64,000 nt of DNA from Eubacteriales bacterium (GCA_024655885.1 JANLFN010000008.1:62001-126000), one strand, 5' to 3'. Numbered from the stretch's first letter, positions 2,297 through 10,383 are shown. Made by a program: numbers and translations. Notes: generated by a model not told the origin, from the letters alone.

Positions 2297-2481
2297 TTTT
2301 TAGACGTCAACAAGGTTTTTGAAAAACAGCGCTAGGCAAGACTCTCTAATCTTGAGTTTGGTTGGAATTTTTTATGGATATTCATATAAGCATTTACGAA
2401 AGATGTGAAAATTTATGCATAAACGGCAAATAATTGTCCAATACTACAAATGACCTCACAAAATACATTTTGACCCCCTTT

Positions 2482-2516
2482 AAAAATACTCTAGCAACAG
2501 TGCTAGGGTATTTTTT
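2482..2516. terminator. Bidirectional intrinsic terminator
   Basis: The arm AAAATACTCTAGCA pairs with TGCTAGGGTATTTT across ACAG, with an A-run before and a T-run after. It can therefore stop transcription from either side. It lies past the end of the methyltransferase array. Confidence 0.65.
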
Positions 2517-2654
2517 ATAATTACAGAAATTTCCATCAGCACCAGGTGTGCAAGCACCTTCTTTCCCATCACAGAAGGGATTCTTTTTTCATTCCCCCGC
2601 AGCACGGCATGATAAATGCCGGTTCCGGACGGCTTTCTGCTTCTCCCCGGCATG

Positions 2655-2716: not shown

Positions 2717-2747
2717 TGAGTCAAACAAGAACCGTCCCCGGTGGCTC
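2717..2747 (+). repeat. REP-like palindromic repeat, GAACCGTCCCC core (copy 2)
   Basis: TGAGTCA at 2717-2723, then AAGAACCGTCCCCGG and GGCTC at the other end. It touches the TAG stop of the methyltransferase gene on the minus strand, a typical place for REP elements, between a stop codon and the terminator. The right arm differs from the perfect TGACTCA of the 10611 copy. Confidence 0.65.
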
Positions 2748-3883
2748 TATTTCCCTAAAGTGGCCAGAATAATTGCTTCAATGTTCTCTCTCTTTGCGTT
2801 TGCAGGTACCGAACAGCCCACGCTCATAATAAAACCTCTATCGCCCATGATGTCCAAAAGCCTCCTTGCGGCCTGATAGCATTCGTCCGGCGTACCCACC
2901 GCAACCAGCCCCGGAGGGATGTTCCCTTCTATGCACATGTAGTCGCCAAGTACTTTCTTTAAATTTTCCATAGGCGTCAAATGGTCGGGATCGAAGATGC
3001 AAGACTTCTTGGGGAATTCCGTAAAATAATGGAGGAAACCGCTCCAGTCCGAGTCGTTGTGCAACCATGTCTTTACGTTTATTTCATTTAAAGCCGTAAT
3101 CGTCTTTTTAAAAAAGGGGTGATAATACCTCTCATAGACCTTTGGGGATATAAAGTCACTCCCTGCACGGGTGCCCCCGATGGTTGCGAAAACTGCGGGC
3201 GGACCTTCTTTAATGGCCTTGACCCCCCGGCTGATTGTCTCTTCATTCATTATATCTATGACAGCTGCAACCTTCTCAGGCATCCGCCTCAAGTCCTTGA
3301 AAAAATTGGGCAGCTTACGGGCTCCGCTCAACACCTCAAAGGAAGGCAAGGGCAGCAACGCGCCCATTGTATAGCGCGACTTTCCAAGCTCAGCTACTTT
3401 TTTATTCATTGCTTCCATATACTCGGTATCCGGCGGAGGCAGGCTTGCGGGATCATACCCGATCCTCCTGTAGAGCTCCTCGGTCATATAAGCCCAGCCT
3501 TTATCGATGACGGTGTCATAGTCCTCTTCCGTCATAGGTCCCTGTTCGTCGATATTCCATATGGCATCCTCGGGAAGGTCACGCCCGGGAATCTTCATCT
3601 TGGCAAAATACATGGCCGCAAAGGATTGCAGAAAGGCTTCGCTTGTGAATCCAATCATGGGCCCCGAATCCATTTCTTCAATTATGGGCAGTTTATAAGC
3701 CTGCAAGGTTATCTCGTCAATATATTTGGGCCTCCTGAACATATCGGCTATTACGGCCGTCGGGTCAATCCACTTGAAGAAACCCTGCCCCGAAAGGCTT
3801 ATGGGAATCCTGTCGGGCTTCTCCATGTTGATTGCCGCAATCATTCTTTTGTCGCGGATTTCGGTCATTTCTTGCGGTGTCAT
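2747..3883 (-). CDS. URO-D-family corrinoid methyltransferase, paralogue 1
   Basis: A 378-residue protein of the uroporphyrinogen decarboxylase fold used by MtaA/CmuA/MtvB-type methyltransferases, which exchange methyl groups between a substrate or carrier and a corrinoid protein. It opens with MTPQEMTEIRDKRMIAA, nearly the same as its two neighbours, and has the family's EKPDRIPI near residue 20. The metal-site region reads WLHNDSDW (His near 275, Asp near 277) with a late Cys in SVGCSVP (near 357). So the usual H-x-C is H-x-D here. A GGGGGTG ribosome binding site precedes the ATG. Two bases separate it from the upstream corrinoid fragment. The substrate is unknown; methoxylated aromatics are a reasonable guess. 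Confidence 0.85.
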   Translation of the reverse strand: MTPQEMTEIRDKRMIAAINMEKPDRIPISLSGQGFFKWIDPTAVIADMFRRPKYIDEITLQAYKLPIIEEMDSGPMIGFTSEAFLQSFAAMYFAKMKIPGRDLPEDAIWNIDEQGPMTEEDYDTVIDKGWAYMTEELYRRIGYDPASLPPPDTEYMEAMNKKVAELGKSRYTMGALLPLPSFEVLSGARKLPNFFKDLRRMPEKVAAVIDIMNEETISRGVKAIKEGPPAVFATIGGTRAGSDFISPKVYERYYHPFFKKTITALNEINVKTWLHNDSDWSGFLHYFTEFPKKSCIFDPDHLTPMENLKKVLGDYMCIEGNIPPGLVAVGTPDECYQAARRLLDIMGDRGFIMSVGCSVPANAKRENIEAIILATLGK

Positions 3884-3884
3884 T

Positions 3885-4112
3885 TCATTTCACCCCCATG
3901 TACTTTTTAGAGTATTCTACGGTCTCCTGCGCATTCCTGCAGACATGGTCCGCCCCCATGTACTTGCAGGTGGCCTCGTCCACCGGGCCTCCGCCGATGA
4001 GGACCTTCACGTCCCCGCGCAGTCCTTCCCTCTCCAGGGTTTGGATGCACTCCTTGATGTTGTCGAAGGCGGTGGTCAAAAGGCAGGAGATGCCTAAAAG
4101 AATTGCCGGCAT
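3885..4112 (-). pseudogene. Corrinoid protein C-terminal fragment (75 codons)
   Basis: From GISCLLTTAFDN onward this matches the last ~70 residues of the intact corrinoid protein at 5265-5891 almost residue for residue, including GGGPVDEATCKY and NAQETVEYSKKYMGV. A stretch of about 40 bases is identical at DNA level (around 4050-4090). The N-terminal helical domain and the cobalamin-binding D-x-H-x-x-G are absent, so it cannot carry a corrinoid as the intact protein does. The reading frame is open, and an in-frame ATG follows TTTTAGGA, so a short peptide could still be made. It looks like a tandem-duplication copy that lost its 5' part. Confidence 0.8.
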
Positions 4113-4120
4113 TCCTAAAA

Positions 4121-5260
4121 TTATTTTCCTAAAGTAGCCAGAATGACAGCTTCAACATTTTCTCTCTTCGCATTGACCGGCACTCCACAGCCTACACCCA
4201 TCATAAAGCCCGTATCGCCCATCAGGTCAATAAGATCTCTTGCGGCTTTATAGCAATCATCCGGGGTGCCCACTGCAAGAAGGGCGGGGGGGATATTGCC
4301 TTCAATGCACATTCTATCGCCAAGAACCTCCTTTAATTTTTCCATGGGCGTCAAATGGTCGGGATCAAAAATGCACTGCGCTTTCGGAAATTCGGTAAAA
4401 TATTGGAGGAACCCGCTCCAGTCCGAATCATTATGGAACCAGGTTTTTACGTTTACTTCCCGCATGGCGGGAACGATCTTGTGATAGAAGGGATGATAGT
4501 ATTTCTCGTACACCCTTGCAGAAATGAAATCGCTGCCCGCACGGGTTCCGCCGATAAACCCATAGGCACAAGGCGGGCCGGATTTTAGCGCGCCGACCAT
4601 TTTATTAATTGCAGCTTCATCAACGATATCAATCACTGCTTTCACCTTGTCGGGAATTCTGCGCAAGTCCTTAAAAAATTCAGGCATTTTACGGGCACCG
4701 CTGATTACCTCAAACGAAGGCATAGGGAGAAATGGATTGATCTCAAGGCTTGTTTTTCCAAGCGCGGCTATCTTCGCGTTAAGCTCATTGGTATATTCCA
4801 TATCCGGGGGAGGCATGCTTGCGGGATCAAAGCCGATCCTCTTATAGAGCTCGGCGGTCATATACTCCCAGCCTTTATCTATTACAGTGTCATAATCCTC
4901 TGCCGTCATTGGACCAACTTCATCGATATTCCAGATGGCGTCCTCCGGAAGGTCACGGCCGGGAATTTTTATCTTTGCAAAGTACGACGTCGCAGCAAAG
5001 GCTGTCATTCCTGCTTCTGTTGTAAATCCAATCATAGGCGCGGAATCTATTTCATTGATTATGGGAAGCTGAAAGGCCTGAAGAGTCAGCTCGTCCGTGT
5101 ACTTTGGGTTTCTGAACAAGTCCGCCAGAACTGCTTTAGGGTCAATCCACTTGAAGAAACCCTGGCCGCTCAGGTTGATTGGGATCCTGTCTGGCTTTTC
5201 CATGTTTAACGCTGCCATTATTCTTTTGTTTCGGATCTCTGTCATTTCTTGCGGCGTCAT
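4121..5260 (-). CDS. URO-D-family corrinoid methyltransferase, paralogue 2
   Basis: A 379-residue paralogue and the closest relative of the 2747-3883 protein; both share SGQGFFKWIDP, PGRDLPEDAIWNID and the motif FHNDSDW (His near 276). The late Cys is in GVGCGVP (near 358). It starts four bases after the stop of the only intact corrinoid protein of the array, so these two are probably the working pair: the URO-D protein would transfer the methyl group onto the cobalt of the corrinoid protein. Relation to MtvB/MtaA-type enzymes is family knowledge; the methyl donor is not deducible. Confidence 0.87.
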   Translation of the reverse strand: MTPQEMTEIRNKRIMAALNMEKPDRIPINLSGQGFFKWIDPKAVLADLFRNPKYTDELTLQAFQLPIINEIDSAPMIGFTTEAGMTAFAATSYFAKIKIPGRDLPEDAIWNIDEVGPMTAEDYDTVIDKGWEYMTAELYKRIGFDPASMPPPDMEYTNELNAKIAALGKTSLEINPFLPMPSFEVISGARKMPEFFKDLRRIPDKVKAVIDIVDEAAINKMVGALKSGPPCAYGFIGGTRAGSDFISARVYEKYYHPFYHKIVPAMREVNVKTWFHNDSDWSGFLQYFTEFPKAQCIFDPDHLTPMEKLKEVLGDRMCIEGNIPPALLAVGTPDDCYKAARDLIDLMGDTGFMMGVGCGVPVNAKRENVEAVILATLGK

Positions 5261-5264
5261 ATTA

Positions 5265-5891
5265 TTACACCCCCATGTACTTTTTAGAGTATTCCACCGT
5301 CTCCTGGGCGTTCTTGCACACGTGGTCGGCCCTCACATACTTGCAGGTGGCCTCATCCACAGGGCCTCCCCCGATCAAGATCTTCACGTCCTTGCGCAAG
5401 CCCTCCTTCTCCAGGGTCTGGATGCACTCCTTGATGTTGTCGAAGGCGGTGGTCAAAAGGCAGGAGATTCCGATGACCTTGGGCTTGTACTGCCTGATGG
5501 CCTCTACGTACTTGGCCGTAGGCACGTCCACCCCCAGGTCGACGACGTTGAAGCCATTGCTGGCCATCACTGTGGTGACAATGTTTTTTCCGATGTCATG
5601 GATGTCGTCGTAGATGGTACCCATGACGAATACGCCATACTTGGAAGCAGCAGACGCTTCCCCGGTGCCTCCCAAAATGTCGGAAGCTTCCTTGAATATT
5701 TCCGCCGACATGATGAGCTCGGACAGAAAATACTCCTTTTCCTCAAACCTTTTTCCAACAATGCTCATCCCTTCCTGCAGGTAAGCAATGATGTCCAGCG
5801 CAGGAACATCCTTCGCCTTTAATGCCTTAACCTCTTCCAACACCGCATCTTCATTGAGGTCAGCCATCGCATCTGTAAGCTTTTTACTCAT
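5265..5891 (-). CDS. Methyltransferase corrinoid protein (MtvC/MtaC-type)
   Basis: A 208-residue cytoplasmic methyl carrier. Residues 1-85 form the helical cap domain (LQEGMSIVGKRFEEKEYFLSELIMS). The rest is a Rossmann-like B12 domain with D-x-H-x-x-G (YDDIHDIGKN, cobalt-ligand His near 98), GISCLLTT and the GGGPV loop. It shuttles a methyl group from a substrate-specific methyltransferase to a second methyltransferase such as MeTr. The ATG at 5891 is preferred over a TTG six bases earlier because GGGGG lies eight bases before it. An 82-base gap upstream contains TTGCAT-17-AATAAT, a possible internal promoter. It is the only intact corrinoid protein in this array. Confidence 0.92.
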   Translation of the reverse strand: MSKKLTDAMADLNEDAVLEEVKALKAKDVPALDIIAYLQEGMSIVGKRFEEKEYFLSELIMSAEIFKEASDILGGTGEASAASKYGVFVMGTIYDDIHDIGKNIVTTVMASNGFNVVDLGVDVPTAKYVEAIRQYKPKVIGISCLLTTAFDNIKECIQTLEKEGLRKDVKILIGGGPVDEATCKYVRADHVCKNAQETVEYSKKYMGV

Positions 5892-5979
5892 TGACAAATC
5901 CCCCTTTTTTTAGATGGTATATAAATTATTTCCATTTGTTTAAACGGATGCAATAAAAGCAAGCGACTCCAGCCCAATC

Positions 5980-7110
5980 TTACTTGCCTATCGTCGCCAG
6001 AACGACTGCTTCTACGTTTTCCCTCTTTGCATTTGGAGGGACACTGCAGCCGGAGTTCATGATGAACCCCGAGGGGCCTATGCCTTCACATAATTTTTTG
6101 GCATATTTATAGCATTCATCAGGAGTGCCGACGGATGTGAGTGCAGGCGGAACGTTACCGGTTATGCACATGATATCTCCAAGTATTTCTTTTATTTTGA
6201 AAATATCGGTCAAATGGTCAGGATCGAAAATACACCCGGCCTTGGGAAATTCCTTGAAGTATTTCAGAAATCCTTCCCAATTGGAATCATTATGGAACCA
6301 TGCCTTAGAGCCATTGTCATTCATAACTTTAACAATTTTACGAAAATATGTGTGATAAAATTTTTCATATACCTTTGGGGATATAAAGTCGCATCCCGCA
6401 CGGGTTCCACCGATAAACACATATACCGGAGGATCATCTTTTATTGCCTGTTCAACCATGTTTTCATCTTCACTTTCCATAATATCCAACGCGGCTCTCA
6501 CCTTATCAGGCATGCGGCGAAGATCCTTAAAGAATTGGGGCAGTTTGCGGGCTGCGCTTAATACCTCAAATGATGGTATGGGTATTACTTTCGCGCTGGA
6601 ACTGATGGATGTCTTTCCTAATTCGGCAACTTTTTTTTGAATTTCCGCCATATAATCAGCATCAGGAGGCGGCATGCTTGCAGGATTAAATCCAATCCGG
6701 TCAAAAAGCTCCTGTTTTAACACACTCCAACCTTTGTCTATTATTGTGTCATAATCCTCTTCCGTCATAGGACCCTGCTCGTCTATCTGCCATAGAGCAT
6801 CCTCAGGCAGTTCCCGCCCAGGCAGCTTCATCTTTGCAAACCATATTGAGCCCATGGACTCAATCATGCCTCCCATTCCAACCGTTGGAGCAGAGTCTAT
6901 TTCTTCGAGGATGGGCAATTTTGCGGCTTGAATAAGCATTTCGTCTACCAGTTTCGGTCTTCTGATATAATCGGCTACCACCATGGTGGGATCTACAAAT
7001 TTGAAATCCATCTGACCTGAAAACATTATAGGAATCCTGTCAGGTTTTTCAAGATTTAACGCTGCCATTATCCTCCTGTTTCGGATTTCTGTCATTTCTT
7101 GTGGTGTCAT
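5980..7110 (-). CDS. URO-D-family corrinoid methyltransferase, paralogue 3
   Basis: A 376-residue paralogue with the same opening as copies 1 and 2 (MTPQEMTEIRN), but more diverged: SGQMDFKFVDP replaces SGQGFFKWIDP, and an insert-free GMGGMIESMGS replaces the phenylalanine-rich segment. The metal-site region is WFHNDSNW (His near 273) and the late Cys lies in NSGCSVP (near 355). Its ATG overlaps the TGA of a 36-codon corrinoid remnant. The substrate-facing N-terminal half differs most, which suggests a different methyl donor from copies 1 and 2. Confidence 0.85.
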   Translation of the reverse strand: MTPQEMTEIRNRRIMAALNLEKPDRIPIMFSGQMDFKFVDPTMVVADYIRRPKLVDEMLIQAAKLPILEEIDSAPTVGMGGMIESMGSIWFAKMKLPGRELPEDALWQIDEQGPMTEEDYDTIIDKGWSVLKQELFDRIGFNPASMPPPDADYMAEIQKKVAELGKTSISSSAKVIPIPSFEVLSAARKLPQFFKDLRRMPDKVRAALDIMESEDENMVEQAIKDDPPVYVFIGGTRAGCDFISPKVYEKFYHTYFRKIVKVMNDNGSKAWFHNDSNWEGFLKYFKEFPKAGCIFDPDHLTDIFKIKEILGDIMCITGNVPPALTSVGTPDECYKYAKKLCEGIGPSGFIMNSGCSVPPNAKRENVEAVVLATIGK

Positions 7111-7214
7111 ATTACTTCACCCCCATATTTTTTAGAGTATTCTACTGTTTCCTGCGCATTCTTGCATTCATGGCCCGGTCCTACATACTTGCAGGTAGCC
7201 TCATCCACAGGTCC
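7107..7214 (-). pseudogene. Corrinoid protein remnant, last 35 codons
   Basis: Reading the minus strand from 7214 gives GPVDEATCKYVGPGHECKN and then QETVEYSKKY followed by GGEVI and a stop. This is unmistakably the end of the corrinoid protein found whole at 5265-5891. No start codon or upstream domain remains; the preceding DNA belongs to the end of the next methyltransferase gene. The TGA overlaps the ATG of paralogue 3 (ATGA), preserving the original gene junction. Confidence 0.8.
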
Positions 7215-7230
7215 CCGCTCATGATTACGA

Positions 7231-8355
7231 TTATCCCCGCACTGCCGCAACCATAGCTTCTACATTTTCTGGCTTCGCATTCGGAGGTATGGAGCAGCCC
7301 GATGACAATATGAAGCCTTCGGGGCCGATATCGCGGATGAGTTTTGTCGAATAATTGTAAACATCCTCCGGGGTTCCCAATGCCAGAGATGAGGGAGAAA
7401 CATCGCCCGTGATGCACATCCTGCCGCCAAGCACCTTCTTCACTTTATAGATGTCGGTGGCACCGTCCAGGTCGAAAATGCATCTCCCTTTGGGGAAATC
7501 CAAAAAGAAGTCCAGATTGTCATCCCATCTTGAATCCATATGGAAATATACGTTGGAGCCTCTGTCGATAGCGATGTCGGCAAAGGTCTTATACATAGGC
7601 CATGCAAACTTCTCGAACATTTTTCTGGAGATAAAATCGTTGCTCGCATGGTTCGCCGGTATAACTGCAGTGATAAAAGGTTTGGCTTCATCAAGCTGCT
7701 TTTTAAGGTCATCCGTCATTTCAGCCATAGCTGCATCGAAGACTTCCAGTATCTTATCCGGCATTCTGTGAAGGTCTTTCATGAAATTCGACATGCCGCG
7801 GCCCATGCAGACGGCATCAAACAACATTCCGGACGCCGCGCCTGACAGCAGGTTAATTCCCGCCTCTTCCACTTTCGGCATCATGGCGGCCAAGAGTTCC
7901 TTGGATTTTTCAAACTCTTCGGGTTTATAGCCCAGCCTGCGGACGACAAAATCACTGTAAAAAGCATTCCACCCCTTGTCGATGATGGTGTCATAGTCCT
8001 CCACCGTCATCAGACCCACCTCGTCGTACTGAAAAAGTGCATCTTCAGGCAATTCACGTCCCGGCAGCTTCATTTTGGTCAGAAACATGGCGCCGCTCAC
8101 CTGAATATAAGACCCGATAAGGCCTGCGTATACATCCACGCCCGAAAGCTTCTGTATTCCTTCTATGACTTTTTCATAGGCCCATAGGGGCCTGTTTACT
8201 AAATCAGAGATTTTTGCAGATGGTTCGGCGTACTTCATAAAAAAGGGTTCACCCGACAGCATAACAGGTGTAACGTCCGGCTTTTCAAGCTTCAAAGCCT
8301 CTTTAAATCTGTCATACTTTTCTTTTTTCAGTTCCTGAACTGTACTACTGCTCAT
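7231..8355 (-). CDS. URO-D-family corrinoid methyltransferase, paralogue 4 (first gene of array)
   Basis: A 374-residue member, the most distant of the four. It keeps KLPGRELPEDALFQYDE, EDYDTIIDKGW and the H-x-D site (YFHMDSRW, His near 272), with the late Cys in SSGCSIP (near 354). The ATG at 8355 follows GGGGGGTG by six bases and is preferred over an upstream in-frame start at 8373. It is the promoter-proximal gene, divergent from a PucR-type regulator that probably controls the array. It presumably uses the corrinoid protein made further downstream or from elsewhere. Confidence 0.85.
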   Translation of the reverse strand: MSSSTVQELKKEKYDRFKEALKLEKPDVTPVMLSGEPFFMKYAEPSAKISDLVNRPLWAYEKVIEGIQKLSGVDVYAGLIGSYIQVSGAMFLTKMKLPGRELPEDALFQYDEVGLMTVEDYDTIIDKGWNAFYSDFVVRRLGYKPEEFEKSKELLAAMMPKVEEAGINLLSGAASGMLFDAVCMGRGMSNFMKDLHRMPDKILEVFDAAMAEMTDDLKKQLDEAKPFITAVIPANHASNDFISRKMFEKFAWPMYKTFADIAIDRGSNVYFHMDSRWDDNLDFFLDFPKGRCIFDLDGATDIYKVKKVLGGRMCITGDVSPSSLALGTPEDVYNYSTKLIRDIGPEGFILSSGCSIPPNAKPENVEAMVAAVRG

Positions 8356-8823
8356 TTTTAGCACCCCCCACATATATCTCTATTTAAGTTGACATTGTGC
8401 GTAAGAACTTTATTCCATCTTCTGTTTCAAGCAAGTCCCATTTCATATATATACTTTATCATAATAAGAAATGGCAAATCATCGTGTACCGTACACAAAA
8501 AAGCCGGCTCATTATCGGGGAGAATGCACATAAAAGGAGGGCCCAGGGTGGTGATCCCCGGCATTCATCCGAGGCTGCCGGCCAAAAGGCCCGTAAGTCT
8601 GGGATTGGCAACGTGTCCTTCAAAAATTTCACACCCGGCTTTGACAATAAATTTTTAATATTAAAAAATAATCCAAAGCAATATGTGTTATAATGAATAT
8701 TATTAATCCAATATCGCACAACCATTTTCCTGCTTAAAGTTTTTATATTTTTTTATAAAAGAGTAAAATTCCATTCTTCAGATGGCAAAACCCGTAACAA
8801 CTCAAGCGAAAAGGGTGCTTAAC
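8356..8823. other. Divergent control region between methyltransferase array and PucR regulator
   Basis: This 468-base region separates two divergent genes. It holds the moderate minus-strand promoter listed separately. Facing the regulator it has a TATAAT at 8689-8694 without a good -35 box, and a TTGACA at 8641-8646 without a good -10. No ORF with a ribosome binding site was found, and no riboswitch was recognised. Confidence 0.5.
8448..8477 (-). promoter_or_regulatory. Possible promoter of the methyltransferase array
   Basis: On the minus strand TTGCCA (8472-8477) and TATATA (8448-8453) are 18 bases apart, about 95 bases before the ATG of the first array gene. The match is moderate. Confidence 0.35.
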
Positions 8824-10383
8824 ATGAAAATGACTCTTAAATGGATTGCCGAGAAACTGTTGAAGTACAACCCGGAAATAAGAATATCCGACGGGGAAAG
8901 CATCACCATCCGAACAATAATGCTGTTGAAAAATGCCCAGCAATCCTTTGAACCGGACGTATTGTACTTTGGAAAAGCCTCGGATTTGCCCAAGTACTTT
9001 TCCGGAAGCTCACCAGTCAATGTTGCATGCGTTGCCGACAGATACTTTCCAAAAAGAAGGTATACAGGCAATTCCAATCTCAATCTCATTATCCTAAAAA
9101 ACCACACGGATATTGTTTCGGTGTTTAATGAAATGCAGGAACTGCTTTCCAGAAACGCCCAAATATCCGACTATAAGGAAAAGCTTATGGAGTGCTTGTT
9201 TGCAGGCAATGGCATGCAGAATATCGTAGACACTGCTTACCAGCTTCTGGGAAATCCTTTAATGATCGTGGATGTGGGGCACAAATACATTGCCAGCTCC
9301 GTCATTGAAACCGAGGACAGTTTTTGGGAGGAAGCATTTAAAAGAAAATATGTGGCAAGCGACATTGTCCTCATGCTAAAAAACTCCGAGGAGATAAGGA
9401 AAATATTCAGGAGTAAAACTCCGGTCATCTTTAACACCCATGTGTCCACACGGGAATTGCTCTCCAATGTGTTTATCGGCCAAAAAATTGTTGCAAGGAT
9501 ATCCGTATATGAACTGTACAGGGAATTCAACCAGGAGGATATGGAGGTGGTCTCCTACTTAAGCCATATCGTATCCCTTGAAATGCAGAAGAGCAAGTAC
9601 AGCTACATTAATAAAGGCCAGATGTTCGAATATTTCCTGAACGACCTGCTTGAAGACAAAATATCCGACGACAATGAGATTTCGGAAAGGGTTAAATACA
9701 TTGACCTGCCCATGAAACCCTACAATTGCGTATTTACTATTGATCTCAGCCATAAAAAGGCGGACTATCCGGTGCAGGCAGAGATCATGGATGAGATATC
9801 CCTGTTGATTCCCGACAGCATCTCCATCTTTTATAACGCAAACATTGTCACTCTCATCAGCGGAGATTCAATCAATGATGTCTCTGAATCATCCATGGAG
9901 AAAATGGAGCTGTACTTAAAAAATATGGACCTGGTTGGAGGAATAAGCTTGTGTTTCAGCTATATCGGAGACTTCAAAAAATATTACTTGCAGTCGTTAA
10001 TGGCTTTAAGGCTTCGCTCCCACATAAGCAGCCGAAAGATTCTCAACAGATACGAGGATTATTTTTTTCACCACATTGCGGACATTTGCTCAAAGATCAT
10101 TAATTTAACGTCCCTCTGCCATCCGTCGGTGCTCAGGATCTGGGAATATGACAAAAAGAACGGCAGTGATTTACTCAAGACCCTGTTTTTTTACCTGAAA
10201 TATGACCGGAGCATAACCGAAACCGCAAATGTTCTGCACATACACCGGAACACTTTGGATTACAGAATAAGCAAAATTAAAGGCGTCATAGACCTTGATT
10301 GGAATAACTTCGATGTCATTAAGCAAATTTACATGTCGCTGCGGATGCTGGAGTATATGGAGCACATCAGTTTTGAGGGCTGA
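8824..10383 (+). CDS. PucR/CdaR-type transcriptional regulator
   Basis: A 519-residue regulator. The C-terminal helix-turn-helix of the PucR family is clear (YDRSITETANVLHIHRNTLDYRISKI, about residues 450-495). The middle part (about 140-270) looks like a GAF-type sensor domain, and the first ~130 residues resemble the N-terminal PucR-like domain. ATG 8824 is chosen because AAAGGG lies about nine bases upstream; an earlier in-frame ATG at 8782 has no such site. It is divergent from the methyltransferase array and is probably its activator, sensing the methyl donor or a product. That role is inferred from position only. Confidence 0.85.
   Translation: MKMTLKWIAEKLLKYNPEIRISDGESITIRTIMLLKNAQQSFEPDVLYFGKASDLPKYFSGSSPVNVACVADRYFPKRRYTGNSNLNLIILKNHTDIVSVFNEMQELLSRNAQISDYKEKLMECLFAGNGMQNIVDTAYQLLGNPLMIVDVGHKYIASSVIETEDSFWEEAFKRKYVASDIVLMLKNSEEIRKIFRSKTPVIFNTHVSTRELLSNVFIGQKIVARISVYELYREFNQEDMEVVSYLSHIVSLEMQKSKYSYINKGQMFEYFLNDLLEDKISDDNEISERVKYIDLPMKPYNCVFTIDLSHKKADYPVQAEIMDEISLLIPDSISIFYNANIVTLISGDSINDVSESSMEKMELYLKNMDLVGGISLCFSYIGDFKKYYLQSLMALRLRSHISSRKILNRYEDYFFHHIADICSKIINLTSLCHPSVLRIWEYDKKNGSDLLKTLFFYLKYDRSITETANVLHIHRNTLDYRISKIKGVIDLDWNNFDVIKQIYMSLRMLEYMEHISFEG

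Follow-up and report, generated by a model that had tools for sequence, protein, structure and literature searches.

Many donor-specific methyltransferases of the URO-D family probably feed interchangeable corrinoid shuttle proteins, and surplus corrinoid cistrons appear to decay to tails that would serve as translation starts; we put the probability of this reading at about two in three. The evidence comes from a methyltransferase array in the window (the whole stretch of 64,000 nucleotides that was analysed), from the genome to which the window belongs (G000; 3.44 Mb in 65 contigs) and from related genomes, mainly of Clostridium. A broader formulation is more tentative and somewhat less likely than not: one corrinoid shuttle, kept uniform by gene conversion at about 18 dispersed loci, would serve about 30 donor-specific methyltransferases in trans, and surplus cistrons would have been reduced, more than once and in different bacterial families, to leaders whose sole remaining role is to start translation of the methyltransferases.

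Organization of the array

The array lies on the minus strand and is transcribed in the order U4, c'', U3, C, U2, c', U1, where U1 to U4 are URO-D-family methyltransferase genes, C is an intact corrinoid gene and c' and c'' are corrinoid gene stubs; corrinoid material precedes the second, third and fourth URO-D gene. The first-pass annotation had described four URO-D genes and a corrinoid gene in three states, and each of them was found in its place and on this strand. U4, the first gene (start at 8373 or 8355, end at 7231; PF01208, 91.4 bits), keeps the H-x-D...C signature in a comparison of the URO-D copies; U3 (5980-7110; PF01208, 87.8 bits), U2 (4121-5260; PF01208, 86.9 bits) and the last gene of the array, U1 (2747-3883; PF01208, 84.8 bits), follow, and these scores of 85-91 bits are to be read against a Pfam cut-off of 23.9 bits for URO-D. 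An AlphaFold2 model of U2 (pLDDT 92) has the URO-D fold, with a Z of 23 both to URO-D and to the M. mazei methyltransferase 4ay7, and Foldseek and VIA-align comparisons of this model recovered the general URO-D fold only and did not separate methyltransferase I from methyltransferase II.

The intact gene C (ATG at 5891, end at 5265) encodes a methyl shuttle protein of 208 residues with PF02607 and PF02310 domains above cut-off and with the D-x-H-x-x-G cobalamin motif; the stretch YDDIHDIG is invariant in 12 copies. Its closest solved structure is 4jgi (E 1e-44), the corrinoid protein of a Desulfitobacterium O-demethylase. The stub c' (3885-4112, 75 codons) aligns to residues 141-210 of C and scores marginally below the B12-binding Pfam cut-off (31.3 versus 32.1 bits), and c'' (7107-7214, 36 codons including the stop) aligns to residues 178-209 and, taken alone, has no Pfam match. 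The D-x-H-x-x-G motif is absent from both stubs, which therefore should not carry a methyl group. They begin 8 nt (c') and about 16 nt (c'') past the stop of the preceding URO-D gene, and no trace of a corrinoid start is present in either.

The end NAQETVEYSKKY is common to C, c' and c'' and is exact in all three, as had been reported. The stop/start junction was also said to be preserved, and this is true of its position but not of its letters: the gap from stop to start is 4 nt at C/U2 and 1 nt at c'/U1, and c'' overlaps U3 in an ATGA. By direct reading of the minus strand, GGGGGTG occurs within the last codons of C (5268-5274) and within the ends of c' (3891-3897) and c'' (7118-7124), and is the likely Shine–Dalgarno sequence of U2, U1 and U3, respectively. 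It stands a few bases ahead of the next ATG, and the signals that start translation of each URO-D gene are therefore likely to lie in the tail of the preceding corrinoid gene or stub; it is most likely in this capacity that the window stubs persist. The same GGGGGTG tail is present in nearly all intact corrinoid copies of the genome. GGAGGT is found in 3 of 9 stubs against 0 of 17 intact copies in the window genome (p 0.03); the idea that an improved Shine–Dalgarno sequence evolves in stubs was dropped, however, since other genomes have GGAGGT in 8 of 18 intact copies as well.

A PucR/CdaR-type gene (8782-10383, plus strand; PF13556, 61.3 bits) is divergent from the array and is likely its regulator. 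Among the other corrinoid/URO-D loci retrieved, most have a homologue of the PucR type alongside. When the array was scanned for promoters and terminators, sites were no more numerous than in shuffled sequences. Just downstream of the array, a 27-nt direct repeat, TGAGTCAA(T/A)CAAGAACCGTCCCCGGTG, occupies positions 2268-2294 and 2717-2743 and flanks a 57-codon open reading frame (2480-2653, minus strand) that recalls a REP-associated transposase and has no Pfam match.

Erosion of corrinoid cistrons

Remnants of corrinoid genes were sought with a weight matrix of the corrinoid 3' end scanned over 798,508 sites. Those before U1, U3, C29_3, C9_m, C15_2 and C15_3 took ranks 16-24, after the intact copies; c' ranked 16 and c'' 22, directly behind the intact copies, and their likeness to a corrinoid end is therefore not a matter of chance. 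At least four further URO-D genes elsewhere in the genome are preceded by eroded corrinoid cistrons. The C9_m remnant is the 30-codon in-frame product of an internal deletion, and that of C15_2 is a 105-codon frame, partly deleted and drifting. At C12, a corrinoid gene with an internal deletion and a stop is followed by a broken URO-D gene (L078, 5180-5760), a locus at which the whole corrinoid/URO-D unit is in decay. The weight-matrix signal was weak at C29_1, C29_2 and C15_1, and remnants before C10, C12_2, C50, C9_2 and U4 were not distinguishable from chance by this matrix. Other URO-D fragments in the window genome lie at C46:29607-30357, C41:180226-180791 and C23:56886-57038.

The stubs have lost the constraint seen in intact copies: residues that are otherwise invariant are changed at 47 of 219 positions in stubs, whereas a leave-one-out assessment of the intact copies gives 5 of about 770. 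For c', c'' and the C9_m remnant only, the count is 8 of 101, with 3 of 55 in c' and 4 of 28 in c''. The lengths and borders of the remnants differ case by case. These substitution counts, the additional eroded cistrons and the syntenic Clostridium pair described below bear out the earlier proposal of corrinoid decay, and they support the view that corrinoid genes decay while their methyltransferases persist. Such stubs are easily misannotated as small genes.

Loss of corrinoid genes in related genomes

Judged from two syntenic blocks, the loss is reciprocal in Clostridium, C. magnum and C. thailandense having each lost the corrinoid copy that the other kept. The block of C. thailandense (L151) comprises a corrinoid gene, methyltransferase II, DUF1638, CobW, URO-D a, an intact corrinoid gene, URO-D b and a transporter, with only about 25 nt of corrinoid tail ahead of URO-D a; in C. 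magnum (L146), an intact corrinoid gene precedes URO-D a and a stub precedes URO-D b. The C. magnum stub, whose start codon and frame are broken, retains the 5' region and the first codons of the corrinoid gene and resumes at about residue 115. In a third family, the order is corrinoid gene, URO-D gene, 53-codon stub and URO-D gene (genome G262, L139).

At another locus of C. thailandense (L145, 8676-9074), an in-frame internal deletion joins residues 1-18 of the corrinoid protein to residues 92-207, leaving about 134 codons; the D-x-H-x-x-G motif and the cobalamin domain are kept, the helical domain is gone, and the predicted product might be a single-domain shuttle. In genome G245 (L155, 5107-9446), a corrinoid/URO-D pair is partly duplicated around an open reading frame of 589 residues that resembles a transposase, leaving a corrinoid fragment; with its transposase-like frame and duplicated URO-D start, this fragment is probably insertion-linked and was left out of the count of decay cases. 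A DUF1638 gene and a small CobW-type GTPase gene accompany methyltransferase II and the corrinoid gene at L151 (10116-11459) and L089 (9821-12264), an association seen in both Clostridium and the window genome.

Origin of the array and of its stubs

The four URO-D genes of the array have different affinities. U4 belongs to a separate, distant lineage, with at most 48% identity to any other URO-D copy; the nearest relative of U3 is the URO-D at C41 (73%) and that of U2 the URO-D at C55 (79%), and U1, U2 and the URO-D at C55 form a trio whose inner branching order is not settled by the tree. Possibly, the stubs are scars of the birth of the array, the URO-D genes having been captured as truncated units of a corrinoid tail and a URO-D gene via recombination in the corrinoid gene, so that c' and c'' were never intact at this site. 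The short distances of the window stubs from the preceding URO-D stop and the missing corrinoid start fit such an origin, and so does the finding that c' and several URO-Ds have their closest relatives on other contigs; the closest intact corrinoid copy to c' is not the adjacent C but C45a, with 89.5% identity at the DNA level. Moreover, c' and c'' have no orthologous intact ancestor and, in contrast to them, the C. magnum stub keeps a trace of its start. Nevertheless, we consider this origin unlikely. If c' had been non-functional since the split of U1 and U2, whose dS is about 1.6, it would be near-random by now, but it still shares 86-90% identity with intact copies and has no more than the three changed residues noted above, and its truncation must therefore be late. 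The C. magnum stub, with its first codons and 5' region, also argues against a birth scar, the corrinoid gene of C. thailandense being intact at that place. A recent capture of a freshly cut corrinoid tail is possible at the window array.

The first-pass annotation had the array grow by tandem duplication of a corrinoid/URO-D unit, with decay afterwards. The unit structure does repeat, but as an account of the array this is very improbable, and tandem duplication of all four URO-Ds is ruled out by trees and AU tests: a clade of U1, U2 and U3 is rejected (AU p 2e-5), U4 is of a distant lineage, and the corrinoid segments within the array resemble copies elsewhere at least as closely as they resemble one another. 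Tandem duplication is thus possible for U1 and U2 only, which are not rejected as sisters (AU p 0.18). Dating the duplications from DNA alignments, as had been suggested, is not feasible at silent sites, which are near saturation between U1 and U2.

A further, very improbable reading is that selection maintains the stubs as functional small proteins or as regulatory leader peptides. In its favour, the frame stays open in several remnants, among them one of 30 codons at C9_m and one of about 134 at L145 of C. thailandense, and the tails keep stop/start contact with the URO-D gene. The sharp rise of residue changes, the frames broken in C12 and C. magnum and the lengths and borders that vary in every case lead us to reject conserved small proteins, and conservation of the stubs as stand-alone genes, which was to have counted against decay, is not what these drifting sequences display.

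A uniform shuttle with divergent partners

A search with C in the window genome gives 14 long matches of 80-100% protein identity and further partial ones. The corrinoid loci number about 18, at 80-92% protein identity, when six starts that are cut off where a contig stops are added to the complete copies; since some copies sit at the edge of a contig, the count and the exact partners are uncertain. About ten contig ends lie within corrinoid gene copies (C33, C53, C23, C12, C32, C45, C9, C37, C29), and the 3,081-bp contig C53 is bounded at both ends by a corrinoid gene start, the assembly breaking at the repeated gene. U2 has 39 matches in the genome, about 30 of them full-length URO-D genes at 33-79% identity (mostly 33-50%), and essentially every URO-D copy shares a set of 21 conserved signature residues. 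The corrinoid proteins of relatives in the same family and order are only about 35% identical; the closest outside copies, at 72-77%, belong to Clostridium species, C. magnum, C. thailandense, C. ragsdalei and C. ljungdahlii among them, and likewise mostly precede URO-D genes.

Among the corrinoid copies, pairwise dN is 0.002-0.14 and dS ranges from 0.06 to saturation, silent sites being mostly diverged or saturated; low dN with diverged silent sites indicates strong purifying selection on the protein. The DNA identity of two corrinoid genes does not follow that of the adjacent URO-Ds (Spearman 0.05, p 0.67, 66 pairs), as in the pair C45b/C32, with 98.5% identity between the corrinoid genes and 44% between the URO-Ds. 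In the corrinoid tree, the copies of the window genome group together to the exclusion of the Clostridium copies (100/100), and in the URO-D tree its URO-Ds interleave with those of Clostridium, the constraint of a single clade for all its own URO-Ds being rejected (p 1.5e-5). Forcing the corrinoids onto the clades of their URO-D partners was rejected in every test (p 5e-4 to 1e-73), and the reverse constraint, with URO-Ds following the corrinoid grouping, was also rejected. A conversion tract spans residues 30-118 of C12/C41b (global p 5e-4), and no other tract in any corrinoid pair was significant after global correction. The sequences upstream of the corrinoid copies are mostly unlike one another. 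Together, the genome-wise corrinoid clade, the interleaved URO-Ds, the conversion tract and the unlike flanks are the mark of a concerted evolution that affects the shuttle gene and not its partners, paralogues within the genome being closer to each other than to counterparts of the same partner lineage elsewhere. Strong purifying selection alone would explain the likeness of the corrinoid proteins, but not the genome-wise clustering of their silent sites.

A model for methyl harvesting

The array is probably one spoke of a hub-and-spoke system with many methyltransferases, each having a regulator of its own, and few acceptors. Each URO-D protein would act as a donor-specific methyltransferase I, passing the methyl group of its own substrate to the corrinoid protein, from which a pterin-dependent methyltransferase II would deliver it to one-carbon metabolism. 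The genome has six PF00809 genes, one of them FolP-like by score and none in the array; one, a pterin-type methyltransferase II, lies directly behind the corrinoid copy C39, is 77% identical to one behind a Clostridium corrinoid copy and is probably the enzyme involved. This protein may not serve all copies, there being four other non-FolP members in the genome. Activase genes of the RACo type (PF14574) number three, on C15, C62 and C36, with none in the array. The approximately 18 corrinoid copies would be functionally interchangeable, their uniformity being kept by gene conversion and by purifying selection, since a common activase and methyltransferase II have to accept every copy, whereas the URO-Ds and the PucR regulators would diverge along with the substrates. 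Where the transcription unit or the genome supplies enough shuttle, the corrinoid cistron before a URO-D gene would be free to decay; deletions would take out its 5' or middle part, and the last codons would stay because the Shine–Dalgarno sequence and the stop/start junction located there start translation of the URO-D. We infer the enzymatic roles, the substrates, the sharing in trans and the translational coupling from sequence comparisons.

We likewise infer, in line with the earlier suggestion, that one shuttle suffices for several methyltransferases. The contigs C10 (104 kb) and C15 (343 kb) have no intact copy of the corrinoid family of C, and the four URO-Ds present on them retain all 21 signature residues; these URO-Ds and the reciprocal loss in Clostridium point to shuttle sharing, and it is to this extent that the suggestion stands. 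Anaerobes often encode tens of corrinoid systems, and it is customary on paper to assign each methyltransferase the corrinoid gene next to it. The repeated, and once reciprocal, loss of that neighbour makes the interchangeability of shuttles testable and is a caution that carrier partners read from gene neighbourhoods can be wrong.

Comparison with known systems

The O-demethylase and haloalkane systems (MtvABC, OdmABD, VdmABD, CdmBCA) consist of a URO-D methyltransferase I, a two-domain corrinoid protein, a pterin-type methyltransferase II and an activase, and all four component types are encoded in the window genome. By sequence, the methyltransferase I of URO-D fold and the two-domain corrinoid protein with D-x-H-x-x-G are both present, and methyltransferase II and the RACo-type activase are found genome-wide, outside the array; the closest solved relative of the URO-D proteins is CdmB. 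The genes described here differ from those systems in their roughly 18 near-uniform corrinoid copies next to URO-Ds that are 30-80% identical, in the eroded corrinoid cistrons before URO-Ds and in an array that lacks a methyltransferase II. Multiple corrinoid systems per genome are already known, with 20 odmA homologues in D. hafniense (PMC3306737) and 26 methyltransferase systems in A. dehalogenans (PMC13222342).

Several URO-Ds beside one corrinoid gene are known as well. The account of type 1 mlp gene clusters, as far as it concerns their composition, gives one corrinoid protein, three URO-D proteins and an activase, and proposes that several Mlps methylate the one corrinoid protein encoded in the cluster (PMC10418091). 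Like these clusters, the array has several URO-Ds of separate lineages beside one intact corrinoid gene, with no folate methyltransferase in the cluster. The type is defined in that account by at least two URO-D Mlps, a corrinoid protein and a Ram/RACE activase, co-transcribed with gaps of at most 2 kb (PMC10418091); the array contains no PF14574 gene, and so falls outside the type. Furthermore, the part of the account that describes the clusters mentions neither stubs nor corrinoid copies homogenised across the genome (PMC10418091).

In a literature search of limited coverage, we found no report of conversion confined to the shuttle while its partners diverge, or of corrinoid cistrons that erode recurrently and reciprocally. 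Gene conversion of corrinoid genes jointly with their methyltransferases is, however, already known from the Methanosarcinales, in which mtmC/mtbC and mtmB/mtbB evolve in concert (PMC6053082). The likeness lies in gene conversion among paralogous corrinoid genes of methylotrophic methyltransferases. The Methanosarcinales homogenise the methyltransferase genes too, whereas here homogenisation appears to involve the corrinoid gene only and the partners diverge freely, a case of a shared carrier that is homogenised while its partners diversify.
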